Made by a program: the position numbers and the translations under genes
In this document: in pieces, positions 297 to 55,762 of the stretch
Layout: each line of letters opens with the position of its first letter
Numbering within the stretch: position 1 is the stretch's first letter
Notes under the pieces: generated by a model
Database searches by the model: none
What the model saw: the letters and a program-made list of their open reading frames with translations, nothing else
Told to the model about the DNA's origin: nothing
Assembly (NCBI RefSeq): GCF_000832065.1
Contig: NZ_JXQM01000001.1
Location: 124,001-188,000 of the forward strand
DNA length: 64,000 nt
Direction of reading: 5' to 3'
Source: Nitrosospira sp. NpAV
GTDB lineage: Bacteria > Pseudomonadota > Gammaproteobacteria > Burkholderiales > Nitrosomonadaceae

Positions 297-899
297 CTAA
301 ATTTTTGCCACTTGAGCTTTACCATTTATTATCAATTCCCTGACTGGCGCAAAATGACGACGATGTATCACTGATGCTCCATGGACCCGCAAGGCCGCAA
401 TATGTTCAGTGGTGGAATATCCTTTATGGCGATCAAAACCATAGTGCGGAAAGCGCTGGTGCAATGCCACCATTTCAGCGTCGCGCGCCGTTTTGGCAAG
501 GATCGACGCGGCGGAAATTTCCGGTATCAGACTATCGCCCCCAACAATAGTGGTAACGGGCCACCTCAAACGAGGGCTATGGTTCCCATCCACCAGTACT
601 CTGCCAGGAATAATTGACAGGCTTTCCACTGCACGTTTCATGGCAAGCAGACTTGCCTGCAGAATATTTAACCTATCAATCTCTTTAACAGATGCGGAAC
701 CAATAGCCCAAGCCACCGAATAGGCTTTAATGGCAATGGTCAGCCTGTTACGTTGAGCCTCGCTGAGTGTTTTTGAATCCGCCAACCCTTCTATGCCATG
801 ATCTGGACCAAGCACCACGCAAGCGGCAAACACCGGACCCGCTAGCGGCCCTCTGCCAGCCTCATCGACGCCGCAAACCCAGTTAATCCCTTCCACCAT
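297..899 (-). CDS. rnhB: Ribonuclease HII
   Basis: This enzyme cleaves the RNA strand of RNA/DNA hybrids and starts removal of single ribonucleotides from DNA. The N-terminus carries the type 2 RNase H signature [15 protein letters not shown], with catalytic Asp12 and Glu13. Further acidic residues lie in LVDGNHSPR and after [14 protein letters not shown] place the start at the ATG at 899 because a GGAGG ribosome site lies about 8 nt upstream. A TTG at 914 would add five residues but would absorb that site. The product is 200 residues, a normal length. It is the last gene of the envelope block. In many proteobacteria lpxA and lpxB sit between fabZ and rnhB, but here only about 76 bases separate them. 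Confidence 0.96.
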
Positions 900-975
900 T
901 CTAACAGCCTCCAATTCTCAGTCAACGAGGATGAAGGTAACCGTCAGTATCAAAACTGCGACCCCATGCAACCCG

Positions 976-1416
976 CTATGGCTGCTTGCTTCGCACGGTA
1001 CACATCAACTCGGCCTCGGTGACAATGCGGCCATCCACTTCCGCCTGGGTGGAATACTTCCAGATGCCGATCCGCTGCCGCTCTATGGTTGCCTTGAGTA
1101 TCAACTGGTCACCCGCCTGGACCGGCTGCTTGAAACGAGCCCTGTCTATGCCGACAAAATAATATATCGAATTCTCGTCGACTTTCACATTCATGGTCTT
1201 GAGCGTTAGAAGCGCAGCAGCTTGCGCCAGCGCTTCAATAATTAACACGCCCGGCATAACCGGGTGATGAGGAAAATGACCGCCGAAGAAAGGTTCGTTA
1301 ATCGTTACGTTCTTGAGCGCGGCGATGTTTTTCCCAGGTTCACAGGATAGAACGCGATCCACCAGAAGAAAAGGATAGCGATGGGGCAAATATTGCAGAA
1401 TTTCATGTATATCCAT
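976..1416 (-). CDS. fabZ: 3-hydroxyacyl-ACP dehydratase FabZ
   Basis: FabZ dehydrates 3-hydroxyacyl-ACP in type II fatty acid synthesis and competes with lipid A synthesis for 3-hydroxymyristoyl-ACP. The 146-residue hot-dog-fold protein has the family start [12 protein letters not shown] and the active-site segment [14 protein letters not shown], with catalytic His47 and Glu61 in EALAQ. The ATG at 1416 is the only sensible start. It lies 86 bases after skp. In the usual gene order lpxD occupies that place and lpxA follows fabZ; neither is present, and no broken copy is visible in the short gaps. Co-transcription with the block is likely from spacing and orientation. Confidence 0.97.
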
Positions 1417-1502
1417 AATCCTAAATCCGGTTAGTGGTCAGGGTGAAGTGTGTGTTATCAAGATCGGGCCGAGATACAACGACGCAACCTCCAGTCAATA
1501 CT

Positions 1503-2036
1503 CTATTTATCCGCCAGCGCCTTGATAACCTTCTCGGTAATGTCCATGCGCTGACTACGGTAAACCAGGTCACGCAGGGGCAATATCAGGTCATACTTCT
1601 CTGTTTCCGCGATAACCTGAATAGCTTTACTGGCGCTCAGTTGCAGGATGGCGACTTCATCATTCTGACGCAGACTCAGGTCTTCGCGCATCTGCCGTTG
1701 GGCGCGCTGATGTTCCCGATTGAGTATGGCGAGATCACGCTCTTTGTTACGCCGATCCGCCTCCGGCATGGTCTTACCTTCTGTCTCCAGAACCTCCTGA
1801 AGCACCTTCGCCTGCGATGCCATCTTCTTGATTTCTTGATCGCGCGGCAGGAATTCCTTTTCTATCTTCTTCAACGCCCTGACCGCCGGCGCCGATTCCG
1901 CGAGTATTCTCTCGGTATCGACCACACCAATCTTGATATCATTCGCATGGACGTCAAAGAATCCGCTGGCAGAGGCAATAATTACGCATGCTGCCATGAC
2001 AGTTCGCCGCCATTGCCATTGAACCTTATGTTTCAA
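1503..2036 (-). CDS. skp: Periplasmic chaperone Skp/OmpH
   Basis: Skp is a trimeric periplasmic chaperone that holds unfolded outer-membrane proteins for delivery to BamA. The sequence shows a signal peptide (basic start, then VMAACVIIASASGFF, cleavage probably after VHA), the family segment IKIGVVDTERILAESA, and a long charged helical middle (about residues 50-130) that would form the tentacles. I favour a TTG start at 2036, since a GGGAG ribosome site sits 6 nt before it and it gives a sensible signal peptide. A TTG at 2078 would add 14 residues and overlap bamA by 17 bases. It directly follows bamA, as in most proteobacteria. Confidence 0.9.
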   Translation of the reverse strand: MKHKVQWQWRRTVMAACVIIASASGFFDVHANDIKIGVVDTERILAESAPAVRALKKIEKEFLPRDQEIKKMASQAKVLQEVLETEGKTMPEADRRNKERDLAILNREHQRAQRQMREDLSLRQNDEVAILQLSASKAIQVIAETEKYDLILPLRDLVYRSQRMDITEKVIKALADK

Positions 2037-2061
2037 TCTTATCTCCCGATTATCCGTTTGA

Positions 2062-4353
2062 TTAGAACTGCTGTCCAAATTGAAACTGGAATCGCTGTAA
2101 GTTATCCCCGGGCTGGTTATTTATCGGTTGGGCGATGCTGACTTTAAGCGGCCCCATCGGAGAAATCCAGGTAACAGCGATTCCCGTGGAATAACGCAAT
2201 CCTTCGAGCTCCGGTCTCACTCCGTCGGGACCCCATACGGTACCACCGTCCACAAACGCGCTCAAGCGCACTGATCTGTCGTTCCGCATGCCAGGCATCG
2301 GAAACAGAATTTCAACGCTGCCCACCGCGCGTCTATTGCCCCCCAGCGTTCTATTATTGGCATCACGAGGACCTAACGAGCTGATGTTGTAGCCACGCAC
2401 CGAGGTATTGCCGCCGGCAAAGAAATTCTTGAAAAAAGGCAGCTCTTTTCCATTGTAGCCGTCACCATAGCCGAGCTCCCCGTTCAGCATGAGTGTGAAA
2501 ATATTTGTGAGTGGATAATACCACCTGAGTTGATAATCCAATTTGTAATAAGTCAGGTCGCCGCCTGGCAAACCCGTTTCCGCGAACACCCGCTGGGTGG
2601 TACCCGAGGTGGTCCAGATGGCGCTATCGCGACCATCACGCCGCCAGCTCAGCGTCAACGGTATGTTGATGGTACTGCTTCCGAATTTTTCCACAAAATC
2701 GATGTTACGTTGCGGACTGTTCGGACCCAGGTCGATTTTCGTATTTTCCAGGCCAAGGCCGGCCATGATACTGTCATTCTCGTTCAGTGGAATGCCCAGA
2801 CGCAACCCGGCACCCGTGGTATCGGTATTAAAAGTGCTTACCGAGGAGAGGGAGCGTGTATTGAGCACACGCTTGTAAATATCAAAGCCGCCGGTTACCC
2901 CATTGCGCGTGAAATAGGGGTCCGTGTACGAGAGCGAGTAGGTCTTGTTCACACTGCCCGTATTGACCATGAGATTGACAAATTTTCCGGTTCCGAATAT
3001 GTTGTCCTGGGCAACGGAACCGCTCAGTATCAGTCCTTCCATGTTGGAATAGCCCGCTCCAAACATGACGGCGCCTGTCGCCTTTTCCTTGACTTCGACG
3101 TTTACATCGATCTGATCGGTGGCGTTAGCAACGGCCGGCGTTTCCAGGTTAACAGCATTAAAATAATTCAACCTGTCCACACGCAGCTTGGATTGGTTGA
3201 TTTTGGAGGTTGAATACCATCCTCCCTCAAATTGCCGCATTTCCCGTCGAATCACTTCATCCCTGGTACGGTTGTTGCCCGTGATGGTAATCCGTCTTAC
3301 GTAAACCCGCCGGCCCGGATCAATAAAAAAGGTGAACGCTACCTGGTGTTTTTCCTTATCCAGCTGCGGCGAGGCGTTGACATTTGCAAACGCGTAACCA
3401 TCGTCTCCAAGCCGGTCGGTAATAAGCTTGACGGATTCGGTCAGTTTCTCCCGTGCAAACACGTCACCTGGGGCCAATTTTACAAGCTTGCGCAATTCGG
3501 GCTCCGGCAACAGCATTTCACCGGCAAGCTTGATCTCGGACACCGTGTATTTGTCGCCCTCGACGATATTTATCGTAATGTAAATATCCTGCATGTCGGC
3601 GGTAATGGATACTTGAGTCGATTCAATACTGAATTCCAGATAGCCGCGATTAAGATAAAATGAGCGCAACGACTCCAAATCGGCAGCCAACTTCTGTTTC
3701 GAATATTGATCTTCCTTGGTAAACCACGTCAGCAAGCCCGGCGTTCGCAGTACTATCGCACTCAGCAGTTCCTTTTCCTCGAAATTTTTATTGCCGACGA
3801 TATTGATTTTGCGGATCTTGGCGGTTTTTCCCTCATCCACCTGAAAGTCGATGCCCACCCGGTTGCGGTCCAGCGGAGTTGTCGTGGTGGTGATCTTTAC
3901 AGCATATTTCCCTCGGCTGAGGTATTGTTGCTTCAGTTCCTGCTCGGCCTTCTCCAGCATGGAACGATCAAAGATGCGCGATTCTGCCAGGCCTGCCTGT
4001 TTCAGGCCTTCCTTCAGCTTATCCTTCTCGAACTCCTTGGCCCCGGAAATGGTGATCTGTGCAATGGCCGGCCGTTCTTCCACCACGACAAGCAAAACCC
4101 CATTGTCGGACTCTAGTCGAACATCTTTGAAGAAACCGGTCGCATAGAGTGTCTTGATGGCCGTCGCGGCTTTTTCATCATCCAGTGTATCGCCCACCTT
4201 AACCGGTAAATAACTGAACACTGTGCCCGCTTCAGTGCGTTGTATCCCTTCCACCCGTATGTCCTTAACTACGAATGGCTCAAGAGCCCATGAAACCGGA
4301 GCGCAAAGAACAGAAACAAGCGCCACGAGATATTTGACTTTCATACTTGACAT
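2062..4353 (-). CDS. bamA: Outer-membrane protein assembly factor BamA
   Basis: BamA is the essential Omp85 insertase that folds beta-barrel proteins into the outer membrane. The 763-residue protein has a signal peptide ending near SWA, five POTRA repeats (roughly residues 24-425; the first begins FVVKDIRVEGIQRTEAGTVF), and a 16-strand C-terminal barrel with the conserved VRGY segment (SVRGYNISSLGPRD) and a terminal aromatic residue in QFGQQF. The ATG at 4353 lies 7 bases after the rseP stop; an ATG at 4344 is an alternative. Its presence beside skp and rseP shows a true outer membrane. Sigma-E-type control is common for this locus elsewhere, but I did not identify such a promoter. Confidence 0.97.
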   Translation of the reverse strand: MSSMKVKYLVALVSVLCAPVSWALEPFVVKDIRVEGIQRTEAGTVFSYLPVKVGDTLDDEKAATAIKTLYATGFFKDVRLESDNGVLLVVVEERPAIAQITISGAKEFEKDKLKEGLKQAGLAESRIFDRSMLEKAEQELKQQYLSRGKYAVKITTTTTPLDRNRVGIDFQVDEGKTAKIRKINIVGNKNFEEKELLSAIVLRTPGLLTWFTKEDQYSKQKLAADLESLRSFYLNRGYLEFSIESTQVSITADMQDIYITINIVEGDKYTVSEIKLAGEMLLPEPELRKLVKLAPGDVFAREKLTESVKLITDRLGDDGYAFANVNASPQLDKEKHQVAFTFFIDPGRRVYVRRITITGNNRTRDEVIRREMRQFEGGWYSTSKINQSKLRVDRLNYFNAVNLETPAVANATDQIDVNVEVKEKATGAVMFGAGYSNMEGLILSGSVAQDNIFGTGKFVNLMVNTGSVNKTYSLSYTDPYFTRNGVTGGFDIYKRVLNTRSLSSVSTFNTDTTGAGLRLGIPLNENDSIMAGLGLENTKIDLGPNSPQRNIDFVEKFGSSTINIPLTLSWRRDGRDSAIWTTSGTTQRVFAETGLPGGDLTYYKLDYQLRWYYPLTNIFTLMLNGELGYGDGYNGKELPFFKNFFAGGNTSVRGYNISSLGPRDANNRTLGGNRRAVGSVEILFPMPGMRNDRSVRLSAFVDGGTVWGPDGVRPELEGLRYSTGIAVTWISPMGPLKVSIAQPINNQPGDNLQRFQFQFGQQF

Positions 4354-49079: not shown

Positions 49080-50069
49080 ATGATTGACGCCCTTTCCTTT
49101 TCACTTGCGATCCCACCGTCAATAGCGTTTATAGTAACGCTGATCCTTATTTGGTGGCTGATAAGGAGCAACGTCCTCAAGGTACTCGATCACCCCAATC
49201 CCCGCTCCCTGCATACCAGGGCCATTCGCCGCACCGGCGGGGTCGGCATGATGCTGGGCATAGGGGTTTCATGGGCCACTACCCCCGCGGCTCTGCCGAT
49301 TTCCGTATCGCTGGGCGTTGCTCTCCTGGTGCTGATCTCTTTTGCCGATGACATCTTCGGGCTGCCTGTGCTGGGACGACTGCTGATGCATGGTGCGGTG
49401 GCTATCTGGTTCTCGGTCGCATTGCTATTCGAAACACATGGGTGGATGATGGTTACAATAATCACCCTTTCGATCGTCTGGATGATCAATCTTTATAATT
49501 TCATGGACGGCTCGGATGGATTGGCGGGCGGGATGACACTCATTGGTTTCACCTGCTATGGCTTGACCGCATGGTCGGGCGGAGACGAATCATTTGCCGT
49601 CATAAACTTCTGTATTGCCGCAGCTGCCGCGGCGTTCTTGATATTTAATTTTCATCCCGCACGCATTTTCATGGGAGACGCGGGCGCGATTCCACTGGGA
49701 TTCCTGGCCGCATCACTGGGGATAATGGGCTGGATAAATGGCTCATGGCCACTGTGGCTGCCGGTACTGGTTTTTTCGCCATTTATTGCCGATGCTTCTG
49801 TTACGCTCTTAAGGCGTTGCCTGGGCGGCGAAAGATTCTGGCAGGCGCATCGCGTTCACTATTACCAGCGTATGGTGCGTGGCGGCTTTGGCCACCGCAA
49901 TACGGCCCTGCTCGGTTATATTCTGATGTTGGCCACGGGAGTTAGCGCAATGTGGGCAATGCACCAGGATATTGCCGTTCAGCTTGGAGTCGGCATGGTT
50001 TGGGGCGGAATTTATTTGAGTATGATGATTGTGTCCGAGCGGTATTTGGAGCGCCTTCCCGGCGATTGA
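49080..50069 (+). CDS. WecA/WbpL-type undecaprenyl-phosphate sugar-1-phosphate transferase
   Basis: Such proteins start O-antigen or exopolysaccharide repeats by moving a HexNAc-1-phosphate onto undecaprenyl phosphate. The 329-residue protein has about ten membrane segments, the metal-binding FADDIFGLP (equivalent of DDxxD), NFMDGSDGLAGG, the FMGDAGAIPLGF segment and a basic His loop HRVHYYQRMVRGGFGHRNTALL. The exact sugar is not readable. The dehydratase gene follows four bases later, a standard neighbour pair in WbpL-WbpM type clusters. UppS and GalU, elsewhere in this window, supply its carrier and related sugar nucleotides. Confidence 0.92.
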   Translation: MIDALSFSLAIPPSIAFIVTLILIWWLIRSNVLKVLDHPNPRSLHTRAIRRTGGVGMMLGIGVSWATTPAALPISVSLGVALLVLISFADDIFGLPVLGRLLMHGAVAIWFSVALLFETHGWMMVTIITLSIVWMINLYNFMDGSDGLAGGMTLIGFTCYGLTAWSGGDESFAVINFCIAAAAAAFLIFNFHPARIFMGDAGAIPLGFLAASLGIMGWINGSWPLWLPVLVFSPFIADASVTLLRRCLGGERFWQAHRVHYYQRMVRGGFGHRNTALLGYILMLATGVSAMWAMHQDIAVQLGVGMVWGGIYLSMMIVSERYLERLPGD

Positions 50070-50073
50070 CGGA

Positions 50074-52029
50074 ATGCCCTTACCCAAACTCAACATACGC
50101 ACCGTAATCGCTTTCGTTCACGACATCGCCGCGACGGTCGTCGCATGGGGACTCGCTTATTCGTTCCGCTTCAATTTTGAAATACCCTCTCTATACCTGG
50201 AATCGTTAAAGGAAATCCTGCCTTGGATCATCCCGATCCATGCGGCGGCATTCCTCTGGTTTGGCCTGTATCGCGGACTCTGGCACTACGCAAGCTTGCC
50301 GGATTTGCGACGTATTCTGCTTGCGGTATTGACGGCGGCGGCGACAGTGCCACTGGTGCTATTCATGCTGCAGATACTGGCCGGCACACCACGCACCGTA
50401 TTGCTGCTGGCCCCCATCCTGCTTCTGTTTATCATGGGAGGCAGCCGCCTGGCCTACCGCTTATGGAAGGAGCATCGGCTCTATGGATTAAAAGCAATCG
50501 AGGGGAATCTCGTCCTGGTATTGGGGGCGGGTGATGGTGCAATCGGTCTGGTAAAAGAGCTCGCCCGCAGCGTGCAATGGCGAGTAGTGGGATTGCTGGA
50601 TGACGATCCCGCAAAACGCGGAATGATGCTGCACGGTTTCAAGGTACTGGGTCGGATCAATGAGCTTCCTGCCATAGCGGAAAAATTGGGTGTGGCTCAT
50701 GCCATCATTGCCATGACTCCCATCGCTTCCGATCGTCGGAAAACCCACCGGTCTCAACTCGACCGCCGTCATCCTGATCGCCTTCACCGCGACCGCCGAC
50801 ATGCACTGGAAATGTGTTCAGCCGCTGGAGTGAAGGCCTTGATCGTGCCTTCTTATGACGATTTGATCAGCGGCAAAATCACAGTGTCGCAAATCCGCAA
50901 CGTCGAGCTGGATGATCTGCTGGGGCGAGATCCGGTGGTATTGGATAATGACAGACTGCATGGCCTGCTGATGGAAAGAACGGTACTGATCACCGGAGCG
51001 GGCGGTTCCATCGGATCGGAGCTATGCCGGCAGATCGCGAAGTTCGAGCCGCGACGCCTGGTGCTGTTTGAGTTGAACGAGTTCGCGCTTTACAACGTCG
51101 AACAGGAACTCCGAGTCGGTTTCCCGGAAATGCCAATGGTATTTCTGATAGGCGACATCAAGGATCAAGCCCGGCTGTCTCAAGTGTTTTCGCAATTTCA
51201 GCCCGCCGTTGTGTTTCATGCAGCTGCCTACAAGCATGTTCCGCTGATGGAGCAGGAAAATGCCTGGCAGGCTGTCCTGAATAACGTATGGGGAACTTAC
51301 GTCCTGGCACAGACGGCAATCAAGTATGAGGTGGAAAAATTCGTACTGATTTCGACCGATAAAGCCGTCAATCCGACAAACGTCATGGGTGCCAGCAAGC
51401 GGCTGGCGGAGATGGTTTGTCAGGCGCTGCAGCAATCGGTTTGGCTGACCGAAGAAAACAATCCGGATGATAAGATGAAGGAAACATGTTTTGTCATGGT
51501 ACGTTTTGGCAACGTGCTGGGCAGCACAGGCAGTGTGATTCCAAAATTCCGCGAACAGATTGCAAAAGGGGGGCCGATTACCGTCACCCATTCCGAGGTT
51601 ACGCGCTACTTCATGTCCATACCTGAAGCGGCACAGCTGGTGCTGCAAGCCGGCTTAATGGGAGGAAAAGAAGGCGGTGGCGAGATTTTCGTGCTGGATA
51701 TGGGTGAACCCGTCAAGATTGCCGACCTGGCAAAAGATATGATTCGTCTATCAGGCTTGACCGAGGGAGATATCAAGATCGTCTACAATGGACTGCGTCC
51801 TGGGGAAAAACTCTACGAAGAATTATTGGCGGACGATGAAAACACTTTGCCTACGCCCCATTCCAAACTGCGCATCGCGCAGGCCCGCCAGGTGGACGCA
51901 CAATGGTTGACGGATCTCGTGGCATGGCTGAACGAGCATCCAGTGCTTAGCGATGAGGAAGCCAAAGAGGGGTTGACGAGATGGGTACCGGAATACAAAC
52001 AAGGCATCGAACCCCTCAGCGATCAATAA
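50074..52029 (+). CDS. WbpM/CapD-type nucleotide-sugar 4,6-dehydratase
   Basis: These membrane enzymes convert UDP-GlcNAc to a 4-keto-6-deoxy sugar for polysaccharide synthesis. The 651-residue protein has four N-terminal membrane helices, a first Rossmann-like part (LVLVLGAGDGAIGLVKEL), and the catalytic Rossmann domain (LITGAGGSIGSELCRQI) with the STDKAVNPTNVMGASKR motif, which uses Asp-Lys and Met where ordinary SDRs have Tyr. Residues about 220-245 hold an Arg/His/Asp-rich stretch (SDRRKTHRSQLDRRHPDRL and following) not expected in the family. The ATG at 50074 follows the transferase stop by 4 bases; a GTG at 50029 is less likely. Confidence 0.93.
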   Translation: MPLPKLNIRTVIAFVHDIAATVVAWGLAYSFRFNFEIPSLYLESLKEILPWIIPIHAAAFLWFGLYRGLWHYASLPDLRRILLAVLTAAATVPLVLFMLQILAGTPRTVLLLAPILLLFIMGGSRLAYRLWKEHRLYGLKAIEGNLVLVLGAGDGAIGLVKELARSVQWRVVGLLDDDPAKRGMMLHGFKVLGRINELPAIAEKLGVAHAIIAMTPIASDRRKTHRSQLDRRHPDRLHRDRRHALEMCSAAGVKALIVPSYDDLISGKITVSQIRNVELDDLLGRDPVVLDNDRLHGLLMERTVLITGAGGSIGSELCRQIAKFEPRRLVLFELNEFALYNVEQELRVGFPEMPMVFLIGDIKDQARLSQVFSQFQPAVVFHAAAYKHVPLMEQENAWQAVLNNVWGTYVLAQTAIKYEVEKFVLISTDKAVNPTNVMGASKRLAEMVCQALQQSVWLTEENNPDDKMKETCFVMVRFGNVLGSTGSVIPKFREQIAKGGPITVTHSEVTRYFMSIPEAAQLVLQAGLMGGKEGGGEIFVLDMGEPVKIADLAKDMIRLSGLTEGDIKIVYNGLRPGEKLYEELLADDENTLPTPHSKLRIAQARQVDAQWLTDLVAWLNEHPVLSDEEAKEGLTRWVPEYKQGIEPLSDQ

Positions 52030-52038
52030 ATAAATGAT

Positions 52039-53793
52039 TCAAACAAAAGTTCGGGCAAGCCTGGCATAAGTACCTTCTTTTGCAAGCAATTCCCGGTGGC
52101 TGCCGATTTCTGCGATGCGTCCTCTCTGCAGCACTACGATACGGTCCGCTCTCTCCACGGTGGATAAACGATGCGCTATGACGAGCGTGGTTCGTCCTTG
52201 CATCAGGGCTTCCAATGCCGCCTGCACATGGTGGCTGGTTTCAAAGTCCAGCATCTGAAGCGTCTCGTCCATAATCAGGACAGGCGAATCTCTCAACAAT
52301 GCCCGGGCAATGGCGACACGCAGCTGTTGTCCGTCGGAAAGTTTTACGCCCCGCTCCCCTACCATCGTTTGCAATCCCTGCGGCATTTCACGAATGAATT
52401 CCATCGCGTGAGCGGCTTGCGCCGCGGCGGTAATCCTGGATTCTGTTTCACGGCCCATGGCACCATAAGCAATGTTGGCCGCCACCGTATCGTTGAATAG
52501 TGTTGCGCCTTCGGAAACCAGCGCGATATTGGCGCGCAAACTGGCTAGCGTAAGACTTGCCAAATCATGGCCATCAAGCAGAACTCTCCCTGACGTGGGA
52601 CGAATGAAACGTGGAACCAGATTAACGAGGGTAGTCTTATCGCGCTCGGAGAGACCCACCAGCGCCACCGTCTCTCCCGGTTGTATGGTCAGCGTGATAT
52701 CCAGTATCTCGCCTGTGCCGGTACTTGTTCCGGAACTTACAGAGCCACGGCAAAAGCTGGCCTGCTCGAATCGCAGTTCCCCGTGCGCACGATCAATGGT
52801 AATTGTGCCTGTGTCCGCTCTCGCATCCGGCTCAGCCGGCTGATCCAATAGCGAGAATATACTCTCCGCAGCGGTAACCTCCTGCTGTCGGGACCTTTTT
52901 ACACCGGCAATCCGCTTCAACGGCACGCTCAGCATCAACATGGCTACGACGATGGATACAAAACCGCCCGCCGTGGTTTCGTTGGCAAAGGCTTCCTGCG
53001 TCCCAAGATATAATATGACCATCAGTGCAACCGAGATTGCAAGTTGCACCAGCGGAACGCTTAAAGCCGCTATGGCAATCTGCTTCATGGTAAAGTCGCG
53101 CACCCGGCGTGCCTCCTCTCCCATACGATGGGTTTCGTAGCGCCGACCTCCGTAAAGCCTGACTACCCTATGGTTTTCAATGGATTCCTTTAATACCTGA
53201 GTGATGCTATCCGCTGTTTGCTGCACTTCCCTTTCCACACTTTGCAAGCGCTTGCCGACGGAACGTATGATCAGCAGGACCACGGATACCATCAATAAAG
53301 CCAGTACCGACAGTTTCCAGTTGAGATAGAGCATCCACGCCAATAGTCCGATAACAGTCAATGTATCTCGCACCATCACCGTTATTACGTCGATGACGGC
53401 ACGAGTGAGCTGAGTTATATCGGACGTGAGCTTGGCAACGAGACTGCTACCGGGCTGGCCGGCATAATAACAATCAGGCAGGATCAATAATTTATCGAAC
53501 ATCTCCGCCCGTAAATCCACGACCAATTTGCTGCTTACCCAGTTGATCGCATAAGTGCTGATATAGCCCGCCACACCACGCGCCGTGAACAACACAATGA
53601 TCGCCAGCAGAACCAGCTGCATTGATTCCACGTCTTTATTGACAAAAGCGCCATCCAGCAGCGGCACCGTCAGTGCGGCTATCACCGGCGCGGTTGCCGC
53701 CATCGCGATCATACCCATCAGAGAGAACACGAACACCTCCCAGTAGGGCGCAATATATTTCATCAGGCGCGAGTACAACTGGCGGCTGTTCAT
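52039..53793 (-). CDS. MsbA-like ABC transporter with degenerate ATP-binding motifs
   Basis: By fold this is a lipid A exporter-type half transporter: six membrane helices (IAPYWEVFVFSLMGMIAM onward) and one ATPase domain. The ATPase motifs are altered. The Walker A reads GLSERDKTT (380-388) where GxSGxGKTT is expected, with both glycines replaced by Glu and Asp. The Q-loop Gln is Glu428 in LVSEGATLFND. The signature is LSDGQ (485-489) and not LSGGQ. Walker A Lys386, Walker B Asp-Glu (IMDET) and the H-loop His (VIAHRLST) remain. The two Walker A changes are single G-to-A substitutions relative to common Gly codons. The start is the ATG at 53793 (584 residues). It converges with the dehydratase gene after nine bases. 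Confidence 0.9.
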   Translation of the reverse strand: MNSRQLYSRLMKYIAPYWEVFVFSLMGMIAMAATAPVIAALTVPLLDGAFVNKDVESMQLVLLAIIVLFTARGVAGYISTYAINWVSSKLVVDLRAEMFDKLLILPDCYYAGQPGSSLVAKLTSDITQLTRAVIDVITVMVRDTLTVIGLLAWMLYLNWKLSVLALLMVSVVLLIIRSVGKRLQSVEREVQQTADSITQVLKESIENHRVVRLYGGRRYETHRMGEEARRVRDFTMKQIAIAALSVPLVQLAISVALMVILYLGTQEAFANETTAGGFVSIVVAMLMLSVPLKRIAGVKRSRQQEVTAAESIFSLLDQPAEPDARADTGTITIDRAHGELRFEQASFCRGSVSSGTSTGTGEILDITLTIQPGETVALVGLSERDKTTLVNLVPRFIRPTSGRVLLDGHDLASLTLASLRANIALVSEGATLFNDTVAANIAYGAMGRETESRITAAAQAAHAMEFIREMPQGLQTMVGERGVKLSDGQQLRVAIARALLRDSPVLIMDETLQMLDFETSHHVQAALEALMQGRTTLVIAHRLSTVERADRIVVLQRGRIAEIGSHRELLAKEGTYARLARTFV

Positions 53794-53968: not shown

Positions 53969-55762
53969 TCAGAATGTATGGGATATACTTGCCCAGACTG
54001 TTCGCGGAATTCCGTTAAACCCGACTGCCGGCTGGTATTTTTTATCGAGAAGATTATCAATCTGAACGCGCAGGGTTGGGCCTTGCTGAAGCTTGTAGGA
54101 TGCGCTAAAGCCTACAATGATCATTGCCGGCAATTTGTGGAGATTCTCATTGTCGTCATATCTCGCACCCTCGCCTCTCGCTATGCCTTCCACCATGAAA
54201 TTTCCCGCCGCATATCTCATCGCCACGGTGCCGAACATTCTGGACCTGCGTGGAAGAATCGTATTGAGCTGCTGGTTGCGCGGATCCTGGAAGGTCATAT
54301 TGGTGCGTATCGTCCAGTTTTTATCAAGAGGTTGGGTTCCACTCACTTCAAATCCATCGATGCGGGCCTGGGAGATATTCTCCACTTGCGAGAACATGCT
54401 GTTAATCACTATGGCATCTTTGATGGTATTCATAAAATAGCCAAACCGATAGCTTGCCCCTCCTCCGTCATATGACACAAACGCCTCGTGCATCCGGCCG
54501 CGTTCAGGCTTGAGATTAGGATTGCCGCCGAATCCGAATAGGGTGGGGAAATAGAGATCATTGAAAGTCGGCGCCTTGAACGACGATGAAGTCAGCGCTC
54601 CCACCCGCCAGGAATCGCCCAATTTCCGCGATAGGGAAAGTGAATAAGTGTTGTAGTCCCCGAATTGGCTATTCTCGTCGTGGCGAAACATGCCTTCCAC
54701 TACATGCTGGCCGGTATCCAACTGCGTTCCCAGAAATCCCGCTACATTGCTCCTGCTGGTGGAAGTAAATTTCGTTGTGCTGTCTACACCCTGAATCTCA
54801 TGATCCATTCCGGTAAAGATCCGGCCAATTTTAAGTTTCTTTTCCAGCTGCACCGATGCCTGCAGGGAATGGCTATTGAATACGGCAGGGAAAGCACCTC
54901 GCACCGTTGATCTGTCGACGGATCCACCATATGTGGCCATCACGCTGAAATCACGGGGAAGCGAATAGATCCCTCTGACATTGGCCAGGGCGATCGATTG
55001 GTTGTTCATATCGGTGGTGACCGGCGAAGCGTCAAATGAAGTCTTGACCTCGGAACCCAAGGCAGTTGCTTCTACCTGGAAATCCGGTGTTATCCAACCG
55101 CCGGCCTTGGCCACGATTCCTAAGCGCTTCCGGGGGTCGTTATCCGGATTAAAAGCAAAAGGATTACTGCTGTTCGTTGCGGACCCCTGGCGGATAATAT
55201 CTTGTACCACGCGTACTCCTGCGTAATAGGAATCTCCCCGTATCCCGAGGCTACTGGCAGCTCTCTCCGAAAATCTCGACCCGCCCCCGGCTGAAAACAT
55301 GATCCCTTTCGGTATGTCGATATTTCCTCTAATTACCCCGCCTACCGCATTGGACCCAAATGCGGCGGATGCCCCTCCCTGAATCACATCAACAGATGAT
55401 AATAAGCCTGGTGCGATGGCGGCAAAGTTTGGCGCTCCGTTAGTGGCTGAATACATCTTGATCCCGTCAATCATAAATAGTGCCTGGTTCGAGTTGGAAC
55501 CACGCATAAACAGGGACACCGGACCGCCTGGACCGAGCTCATTGATTTGAACCTGTTCCTGCAATACCGTCTTCCAGTCGTTATCCTCAACCTTCAATTT
55601 CACCGTGTTGATCCGCAAATTGGTGAGTTCTCGAGTCATAGGAATCCGGTTGCCGCCATAGATGGTGAGTTCCGGCAGAACAGTTTTAGGTACATCGTTT
55701 GCCAGCGCCAATCCGGCCTGATTCACTATCAACCCTAGCATGAGCATGCGGCCTGATTTCAT
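53969..55762 (-). CDS. btuB: BtuB-like TonB-dependent cobalamin receptor
   Basis: The 597-residue protein has a short signal peptide (LMLGLIVNQAGLALA), a plug domain (ELTIYGGNRIPMTREL, then LFMRGSNSNQALFMIDGIKM and GGASAAFGSNAVGGVIRG), and a compact barrel of about 22 strands ending SISHTF. This size matches vitamin B12 receptors. A well-formed cobalamin riboswitch lies 290 bases upstream on the same strand, which identifies the ligand class better than the protein itself. No btuFCD transporter is adjacent. Expression should fall when adenosylcobalamin is plentiful. Confidence 0.9.
   Translation of the reverse strand: MKSGRMLMLGLIVNQAGLALANDVPKTVLPELTIYGGNRIPMTRELTNLRINTVKLKVEDNDWKTVLQEQVQINELGPGGPVSLFMRGSNSNQALFMIDGIKMYSATNGAPNFAAIAPGLLSSVDVIQGGASAAFGSNAVGGVIRGNIDIPKGIMFSAGGGSRFSERAASSLGIRGDSYYAGVRVVQDIIRQGSATNSSNPFAFNPDNDPRKRLGIVAKAGGWITPDFQVEATALGSEVKTSFDASPVTTDMNNQSIALANVRGIYSLPRDFSVMATYGGSVDRSTVRGAFPAVFNSHSLQASVQLEKKLKIGRIFTGMDHEIQGVDSTTKFTSTSRSNVAGFLGTQLDTGQHVVEGMFRHDENSQFGDYNTYSLSLSRKLGDSWRVGALTSSSFKAPTFNDLYFPTLFGFGGNPNLKPERGRMHEAFVSYDGGGASYRFGYFMNTIKDAIVINSMFSQVENISQARIDGFEVSGTQPLDKNWTIRTNMTFQDPRNQQLNTILPRRSRMFGTVAMRYAAGNFMVEGIARGEGARYDDNENLHKLPAMIIVGFSASYKLQQGPTLRVQIDNLLDKKYQPAVGFNGIPRTVWASISHTF

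Follow-up and report, generated by a model that had tools for sequence, protein, structure and literature searches.

The window (the whole stretch of DNA that was analysed, 64,000 nucleotides from Nitrosospira sp. NpAV) contains an orthologue of msbA with a degenerate NBD, which we will call pseudo-msbA (Table 1). Lipid A is what usually anchors the outer membrane of Gram-negatives, and MsbA is the flippase for lipid A-core. The pseudo-msbA frame runs on the minus strand from an ATG at 53793 to a stop at 52039, with no internal stops. Upstream of it, the best model for the TonB-dependent receptor is that of the B12 receptor (TIGR01779), at 230.4 bits, which is below this model's cut-off of 599.7. 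The PF02719 protein on the other side is one that we take to be CapD-like. A scan for promoters and terminators found no excess over shuffled sequences. In a plasmid search that returned 77 records, no match spanned 80% of the query (at most 17% among the five matches listed).

Table 1. Features of the window that are discussed in the text. Motif rows are numbered by the codons of pseudo-msbA.
Feature	Position	Strand	Remarks
rnhB (RNase HII)	297..914	-	left end of window
Gap fabZ/rnhB, 61 bases	915..975	.	E. coli has lpxA and lpxB there
fabZ (FabA-like domain)	976..1416	-	
Gap skp/fabZ, 86 bases	1417..1502	.	E. coli has lpxD there
skp (OmpH-like)	1503..2078	-	listed ORF starts with TTG and slightly overlaps bamA
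bamA (Omp85, POTRA)	2062..4353	-	
Glycosyl transferase family 4 (PF00953)	49080..50069	+	next neighbour past the PF02719 gene
PF02719 nucleotide-sugar enzyme	50029..52029	+	convergent neighbour of pseudo-msbA
pseudo-msbA (msbA orthologue with degenerate NBD)	52039..53793	-	584 codons; TIGR02203, 620.9 bits
H-loop His541	52171..52173	-	retained in window copy; lost in 15/23 Nitrosospira
D-loop, codons 513-516	52246..52257	-	QMLD instead of SALD
Walker B Asp509-Glu510	52264..52269	-	retained
Signature, codons 485-489	52327..52341	-	LSDGQ (L485-S-D-G-Q489)
Q-loop, codon 428	52510..52512	-	Glu instead of Gln
Walker A, codons 380-388	52630..52656	-	GLSERDKTT; outgroup GxSGxGK[ST]
Codon 35 (Ala)	53689..53691	-	equivalent of E. 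coli MsbA D41, a substrate-chamber acid
TonB-dependent receptor	53969..55762	-	upstream of pseudo-msbA, same strand

An earlier note on this DNA had described an MsbA-like transporter with an intact frame of 584 codons and several substitutions at its ATP sites, and all of this holds. The frame is open, both Pfam domains are detected, the score with the MsbA equivalog model TIGR02203 exceeds the cut-off (602 bits), and the protein is placed with MsbA in a phylogenetic tree (see below). Walker A reads G380-L-S-E383-R-D385-K386-T-T. The substitutions E383, D385, E428, and LSDGQ are all present, and K386, D509-E510, and H541 are retained, as had been reported. Beyond that list, the D-loop is changed, and the A-loop tyrosine that is found in 48/48 outgroup rows is absent. 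Six of the ten catalytic positions are retained, which is not the canonical set.

We compared the window protein to its relatives. (In our genome set, we take genus g1 to be Nitrosospira and family f1 to be Nitrosomonadaceae.) All 23 Nitrosospira genomes, including the window's own, have one orthologue with an open frame, and none of the 23 has a canonical Walker A, so that the alignment of close relatives proposed in the earlier note turned up no canonical copy. The Q-loop glutamine is present in 48/48 outgroup sequences vs. 3/23 Nitrosospira. The P-loop lysine is lost in 12 of the 23, the Walker B aspartate in seven, and His541 in 15. When five of the orthologues were scanned with TIGR02203, one passed (610.2 bits) and four scored below the cut-off (560.2, 529.3, 487.0, and 360.7). 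The E383/D385 pair, which gives an ExDK P-loop, is common to five Nitrosospira species (G000, which is the window genome, and G003, G007, G015, and G016). When the tree and the motif table are taken together, the losses within this clade can be put in order. G013 has GxSGxGK followed by alanine, the Q-loop glutamine, and TGGQ; G015 and G016 have ExDK, but retain the glutamine and SGGQ; G003 and G007 have ExDK, glutamate, and SSGQ; and G000 has ExDK, glutamate, and SDGQ. G019 (AADK, glutamate, TGGQ) belongs to the same clade, has a long branch, and fits the series poorly.

The loss of motifs extends across the family. With the window protein as the query and a threshold of 1e-90, 79 of 120 family genomes had a match; with an orthologue from genus g3 as the query and a threshold of 1e-50, 33 of the remaining 41 did, for 112/120 overall. 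The eight family genomes with no MsbA match are four from g3, three from g4, and one from g2. (In an order-wide search at E = 1e-150, only the window's own genome passed, out of eight family members.) Of these 112, we read 82 sequences (52 + 30), and catalytic motifs are lost in every one: canonical Walker A is absent throughout, and each sequence keeps one to eight of the ten catalytic positions. All ten positions are kept in 48/48 outgroup MsbA vs. 0/82 family sequences. These 48 are mostly from Gallionellaceae, Sulfuricellaceae, and Betaproteobacteria, and were taken from 77 non-Nitrosospira loci. In g2, six of eight sequences have an open frame without the P-loop, which is deleted, and without the C-terminal end (L041-L044, L049, and L050). 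Twelve family matches, in a sample that includes draft and metagenome-assembled genomes, carry one stop each. In a tree of 135 rows that was built with a quick method, the 82 family sequences form one clade (SH-aLRT 96), which lies on the MsbA side and away from four paralogues. Since E383/D385 recur in five species and canonical sites are found in 0/82 vs. 48/48 sequences, we conclude that the motif loss is not due to chance or error. The earlier note had also raised a recent loss of function, which our data do not support, as motifs are lost across the whole family sample.

Three other observations concern the distribution of degenerate MsbA. L172, from a record titled as a Nitrosovibrio MAG (a name from within the family), is one of the 48 outgroup sequences and a canonical MsbA. 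It groups with betaproteobacterial MAGs, outside the clade of degenerate sequences; its title seems doubtful to us, and it may be mislabelled or a real exception. We also looked for degenerate MsbA in other families with low scores, but all 24 loci from the 18 genomes that we searched again, which include paralogues and fragments at contig ends, had a canonical Walker A. Finally, MsbA was not matched at E = 1e-110 in two genomes (G158 and G202) from f40, which is a different family of the same order.

The gene order near pseudo-msbA is partly shared with another genus. In G033, PF02719 and PF00953 genes likewise adjoin pseudo-msbA, which supports orthology across genera. G033 also has a serine palmitoyltransferase (SPT) gene about 9 kb from pseudo-msbA, with an integrase-type gene between them (L200:5576-17234), and the two genes are similarly close in G049.

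A search for a second msbA had been proposed in the earlier note. None was found in the window's own genome, which is a draft in 315 contigs. At a threshold of E = 1e-150, TIGR02203 has a single match. Of the other full-length matches in the genome, the best is 33% identical, and a further match is 44% identical in the NBD only. Four paralogues from this genome were scanned and all are below the MsbA cut-off (one of them is a CphA-associated ABC protein, at 1396 bits with a cut-off of 880).

The sequences show purifying selection on pseudo-MsbA in a dN/dS comparison, which the earlier note had suggested. Across 19 close pairs from the family, dN/dS (NG86) is 0.148-0.355, well below 1, and is mostly similar for the NBD and the TMD, with an NBD value of 0.64 for one g2 pair. 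For the window gene, it is 0.173 vs. G007 and 0.148 vs. G003. In ten of ten pairs, codons with a single difference have fewer nonsynonymous changes than the neutral expectation, in both domains; for G000-G007, p = 9e-25 overall and 5e-13 for the NBD, and the weakest deficit is for the NBD of one g3 pair (p = 0.016). With an open frame and purifying selection, the window gene does not look like a pseudogene. Selection may be relaxed compared to that on canonical MsbA, but this is no more than a suggestion. For pairs with dS of 0.05-1.2, the median dN/dS is 0.30 (179 family pairs) vs. 0.28 (371 outgroup pairs). Among the 12 outgroup pairs listed out of 371, eight with dN below 0.12 have dN/dS of 0.057-0.096 (their dS exceeds that of the family pairs), and four with dN near 0.28 have dN/dS of 0.28-0.38. 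Conservation is uneven along the protein: of the columns that are conserved in the outgroup, Nitrosospira keeps 0.48 of those in ATPase motifs, 0.79 of other NBD columns, and 0.65 of TMD columns, and the deficit of the motif columns relative to the other conserved NBD columns is significant (permutation p = 0.0005).

The family appears to be without key genes for lipid A biosynthesis, judging from searches of gene content. LpxC was found in 0/46 family genomes and LpxB over its cut-off in 0/46, with positive controls for both in E. coli and three others; very divergent genes may escape these profile searches. (Two weak, partial LpxB matches are in ORFs that resemble another enzyme, presumably UDP-GlcNAc 2-epimerase, rather than LpxB.) LpxK is present in 77/120 family genomes, all from g3. 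Thus, lpxC, lpxB, and lpxK were not found in the Nitrosospira genomes searched. LpxA passes its cut-off in 6/46 family genomes, all of them Nitrosospira, with full-length matches (L260-L265), and the window's own genome is not among the six. In G004, the one of the six that was annotated, lpxA adjoins a gene for a Wzt-type O-antigen transporter; given this neighbour, we do not read LpxA as a sign of a working lipid A pathway. In g3, the second glycine of the LpxK P-loop GGxGKT is aspartate in the six loci that we read (L097-L102), for instance EDSGKT vs. GGNGKT in E. coli, so LpxK looks like a second lipid A protein with degenerate features.

The left end of the window bears on the loss of lipid A genes. 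Positions 297-4353 contain bamA-skp-fabZ-rnhB, in the same order as in E. coli except that lpxD, lpxA, and lpxB are absent; we read the gaps directly. (The true start of skp is probably further in than the listed TTG.) With tblastn (E = 1e-4), none of E. coli LpxD, LpxA, and LpxB had a match in the window, nor in any of eight more stretches from Nitrosospira. The same arrangement is present in seven of these eight; the eighth stretch, from G022, missed the cluster. We consider the arrangement to be a readable scar of lipid A loss. Judged from genes alone, then, the host of pseudo-MsbA does not seem to make lipid A. The earlier note had argued that, if this is the only MsbA, lipid export must be unusual. 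It is the only MsbA that we found, but most of the pathway that makes lipid A is missing as well, so that no cargo is visible for an unusual export of lipid A. According to Opiyo et al. 2010 (PMC3087551), N. europaea has only lpxK and N. multiformis only lpxA.

Sphingolipids probably replace lipid A in this family, given that SPT is present in 44/46 family genomes (53-56% identity to the SPT of E. coli BL21). The two genomes without it, which are 89 and 79% complete, have only a weaker relative. The window genome's SPT passes NF047599 (589.6 bits vs. a cut-off of 500). Its gene lies in a cluster (L197:9658-15925) with genes for an AMP-ligase and an epimerase/dehydratase, much like known ceramide clusters, and is followed by an ABC exporter with canonical motifs. 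Because an ABC exporter lies beside spt in only four of the 15 Nitrosospira compared (G000, G003, G007, and G016), we keep it only as a candidate for replacing MsbA. N. eutropha carries genes for ceramide and phosphosphingolipid synthesis, according to PMC9386255 and PMC11324152, and the latter also indicates that N. eutropha lacks CC_1166, the candidate flippase of Caulobacter, and that a second LptC/F/G set in Caulobacter is thought to serve sphingolipids. LptF/LptG permeases are present in 117/120 family genomes (L103-L106; at C1:456240-458353 in the window's own genome). They persist even with most of the genes for lipid A synthesis gone. Sphingomonas, which forms sphingolipids and is without lipid A (PMC11324152), is similar in having SPT and missing the lipid A genes. 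A possible difference from Gram-negatives of this type is that Nitrosomonadaceae keep pseudo-MsbA, and g3 keeps LpxK with a changed P-loop.

What remains of the substrate chamber hints at what pseudo-MsbA might bind. A ring of residues in the chamber of E. coli MsbA contacts lipid A, and these residues are named in PMC8660845. The equivalents of R78, R148 (as lysine or arginine), E149 (as aspartate), and Q256 are present in 23/23 Nitrosospira, and that of K299 (as lysine or arginine) in 21/23; at R296 and D252, the outgroup itself shows no conservation. At the D41 equivalent, the outgroup has glutamate in 48/48 sequences, eight of eight g2 sequences keep an acid, and 23/23 Nitrosospira have no acid. 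In g3, the chamber residues erode. PMC8660845 also reports that D41 and R78 form a pair when MsbA faces outward, and that the chamber carboxylates matter for the transport of lipid A but not for the flopping of PE in proteoliposomes. Indeed, a triple carboxylate mutant that includes D41N still flops PE in proteoliposomes (PMC8660845), so losing the D41 acid is, by itself, compatible with transport. Still, holding the basic residues while losing the D41 acid would fit the binding of an anionic lipid in a single conformation, without pumping.

We propose that pseudo-MsbA is a pseudo-ATPase that was stranded by the loss of lipid A and has been kept for an ATP-independent job; we think that this is the probable explanation. 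MsbA would have descended vertically in a family that lost lipid A biosynthesis. Once its cargo was gone, the ATPase motifs would have been freed from selection and would have decayed stepwise, in a different way in each lineage, while purifying selection went on acting on the membrane domain and on the NBD frame. We infer from the motifs that pseudo-MsbA no longer runs an ATP-driven flip cycle. Its retained role would then be non-catalytic, and it is most likely an ATP-independent amphiphile-binding or scaffold protein in the inner membrane. According to PMC8660845, MsbA without its NBD is active in drug transport, but lipid transport is not rescued by it in WD2, an E. coli K-12 strain with a temperature-sensitive msbA. 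Along with the pattern in the chamber, this favours binding or scaffolding over pumping.

We also considered that pseudo-MsbA has no job and is a slowly decaying relic. Its low dN/dS would then reflect selection against a toxic, misfolded membrane protein, or else an older constraint. The progressive erosion of motifs within its own clade (from G013 through G015/G016 and G003/G007 to G000) is what slow decay would produce, as are the stops in twelve family matches, the eight genomes with no match, and the six truncated g2 sequences. However, all 23 Nitrosospira frames are open, and simulated neutral drift of the window gene gives a mean of 6.9 stops at 0.16 changes per site (15.5 at 0.5). The nonsynonymous deficits in both domains of the ten pairs tested also speak against it. 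We consider a relic to be unlikely.

A more specific idea is that MsbA, a homodimeric ABC flippase, turned into an ATP-independent lipid protein after phosphosphingolipids replaced lipid A. The basic chamber would have been kept and the motor and the acid of the outward-facing state lost. In the inner membrane, the protein would hold an anionic sphingolipid or pass it on, and the Lpt permeases that have been retained may be where it goes. This is a speculative suggestion, and we consider it unlikely.

Alternatively, pseudo-MsbA might be the degenerate half of a heterodimer whose other half is a canonical half-transporter encoded elsewhere in the genome. Such heterodimers, in which one nucleotide site of the ABC exporter is degenerate, are known (TM287/288, BmrCD, and TAP), and they keep one working site through their canonical half; an ABCB11-like site is reportedly another case. 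And the window's own genome does encode half-transporters with canonical motifs (C202, which is the CphA-associated protein; C153, beside spt; C1:106629; and C2:128353). But the two genes that flank pseudo-msbA, for the TonB receptor and the PF02719 enzyme, are not transporters of this kind, so no canonical partner adjoins it. Also, both Walker A and the signature are damaged in most members, which would affect both composite sites, and six of eight g2 sequences have no P-loop to contribute. Pairing with an intact half-transporter, which the earlier note had offered as an explanation, therefore seems quite improbable. Like the heterodimers, pseudo-MsbA is a retained ABC exporter whose NBD has lost catalytic residues; unlike them, it has lost motifs of both kinds and has no adjacent partner gene.

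A working protein with unusual chemistry was another of the earlier suggestions; in that case, it would now be a flippase that moves a sphingolipid by using ATP or a proton gradient. The window copy does retain Lys386, Asp509, Glu510, and His541. Furthermore, the Lpt permeases are widespread, and N. eutropha is without CC_1166 (PMC11324152). However, some relatives have no P-loop any more, and others are without the Walker A lysine, the Walker B aspartate, or the H-loop histidine, which makes this very unlikely. Also, in PMC8660845, neither MsbA with an ATPase-deficient deletion of K382 nor NBD-less MsbA rescues E. coli WD2. Finally, an error of sequencing, assembly, or frame in this draft genome can be dismissed, as E383 and D385 are found in four other genomes, including G003 (a single contig), and two more single-contig genomes (G001 and G012) carry other degenerate motifs.

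Pseudo-MsbA shares with E. coli MsbA (b0914) its orthology, by model score (TIGR02203), tree, and full-length alignment, as well as basic residues of the substrate chamber, which are mostly kept in Nitrosospira. It differs in that the ATPase motifs are degenerate in every family sequence read, the D41/E35 acid is lost in Nitrosospira, and most lipid A genes were not found in its hosts. That lpx genes are missing from N. europaea is already in print (2010). In the PMC literature, we found no report of a pseudo- or degenerate MsbA and, by phrase search, no statement that Nitrosomonas lacks lipopolysaccharide. "MsbA" does not occur in the main text of Opiyo et al. 2010 (PMC3087551), or in the main text of one proteomics paper that we examined.

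Our results indicate that most lipid A genes are missing not just from N. europaea, but across the sampled nitrifier family, and raise the questions of what the Lpt system carries in these nitrifiers and which flippase serves their sphingolipids. They also provide a natural series in which an ABC exporter loses its ATPase stepwise in many lineages while selection continues to act on the protein. With this series, the function of the ABC transmembrane fold without its motor becomes testable.
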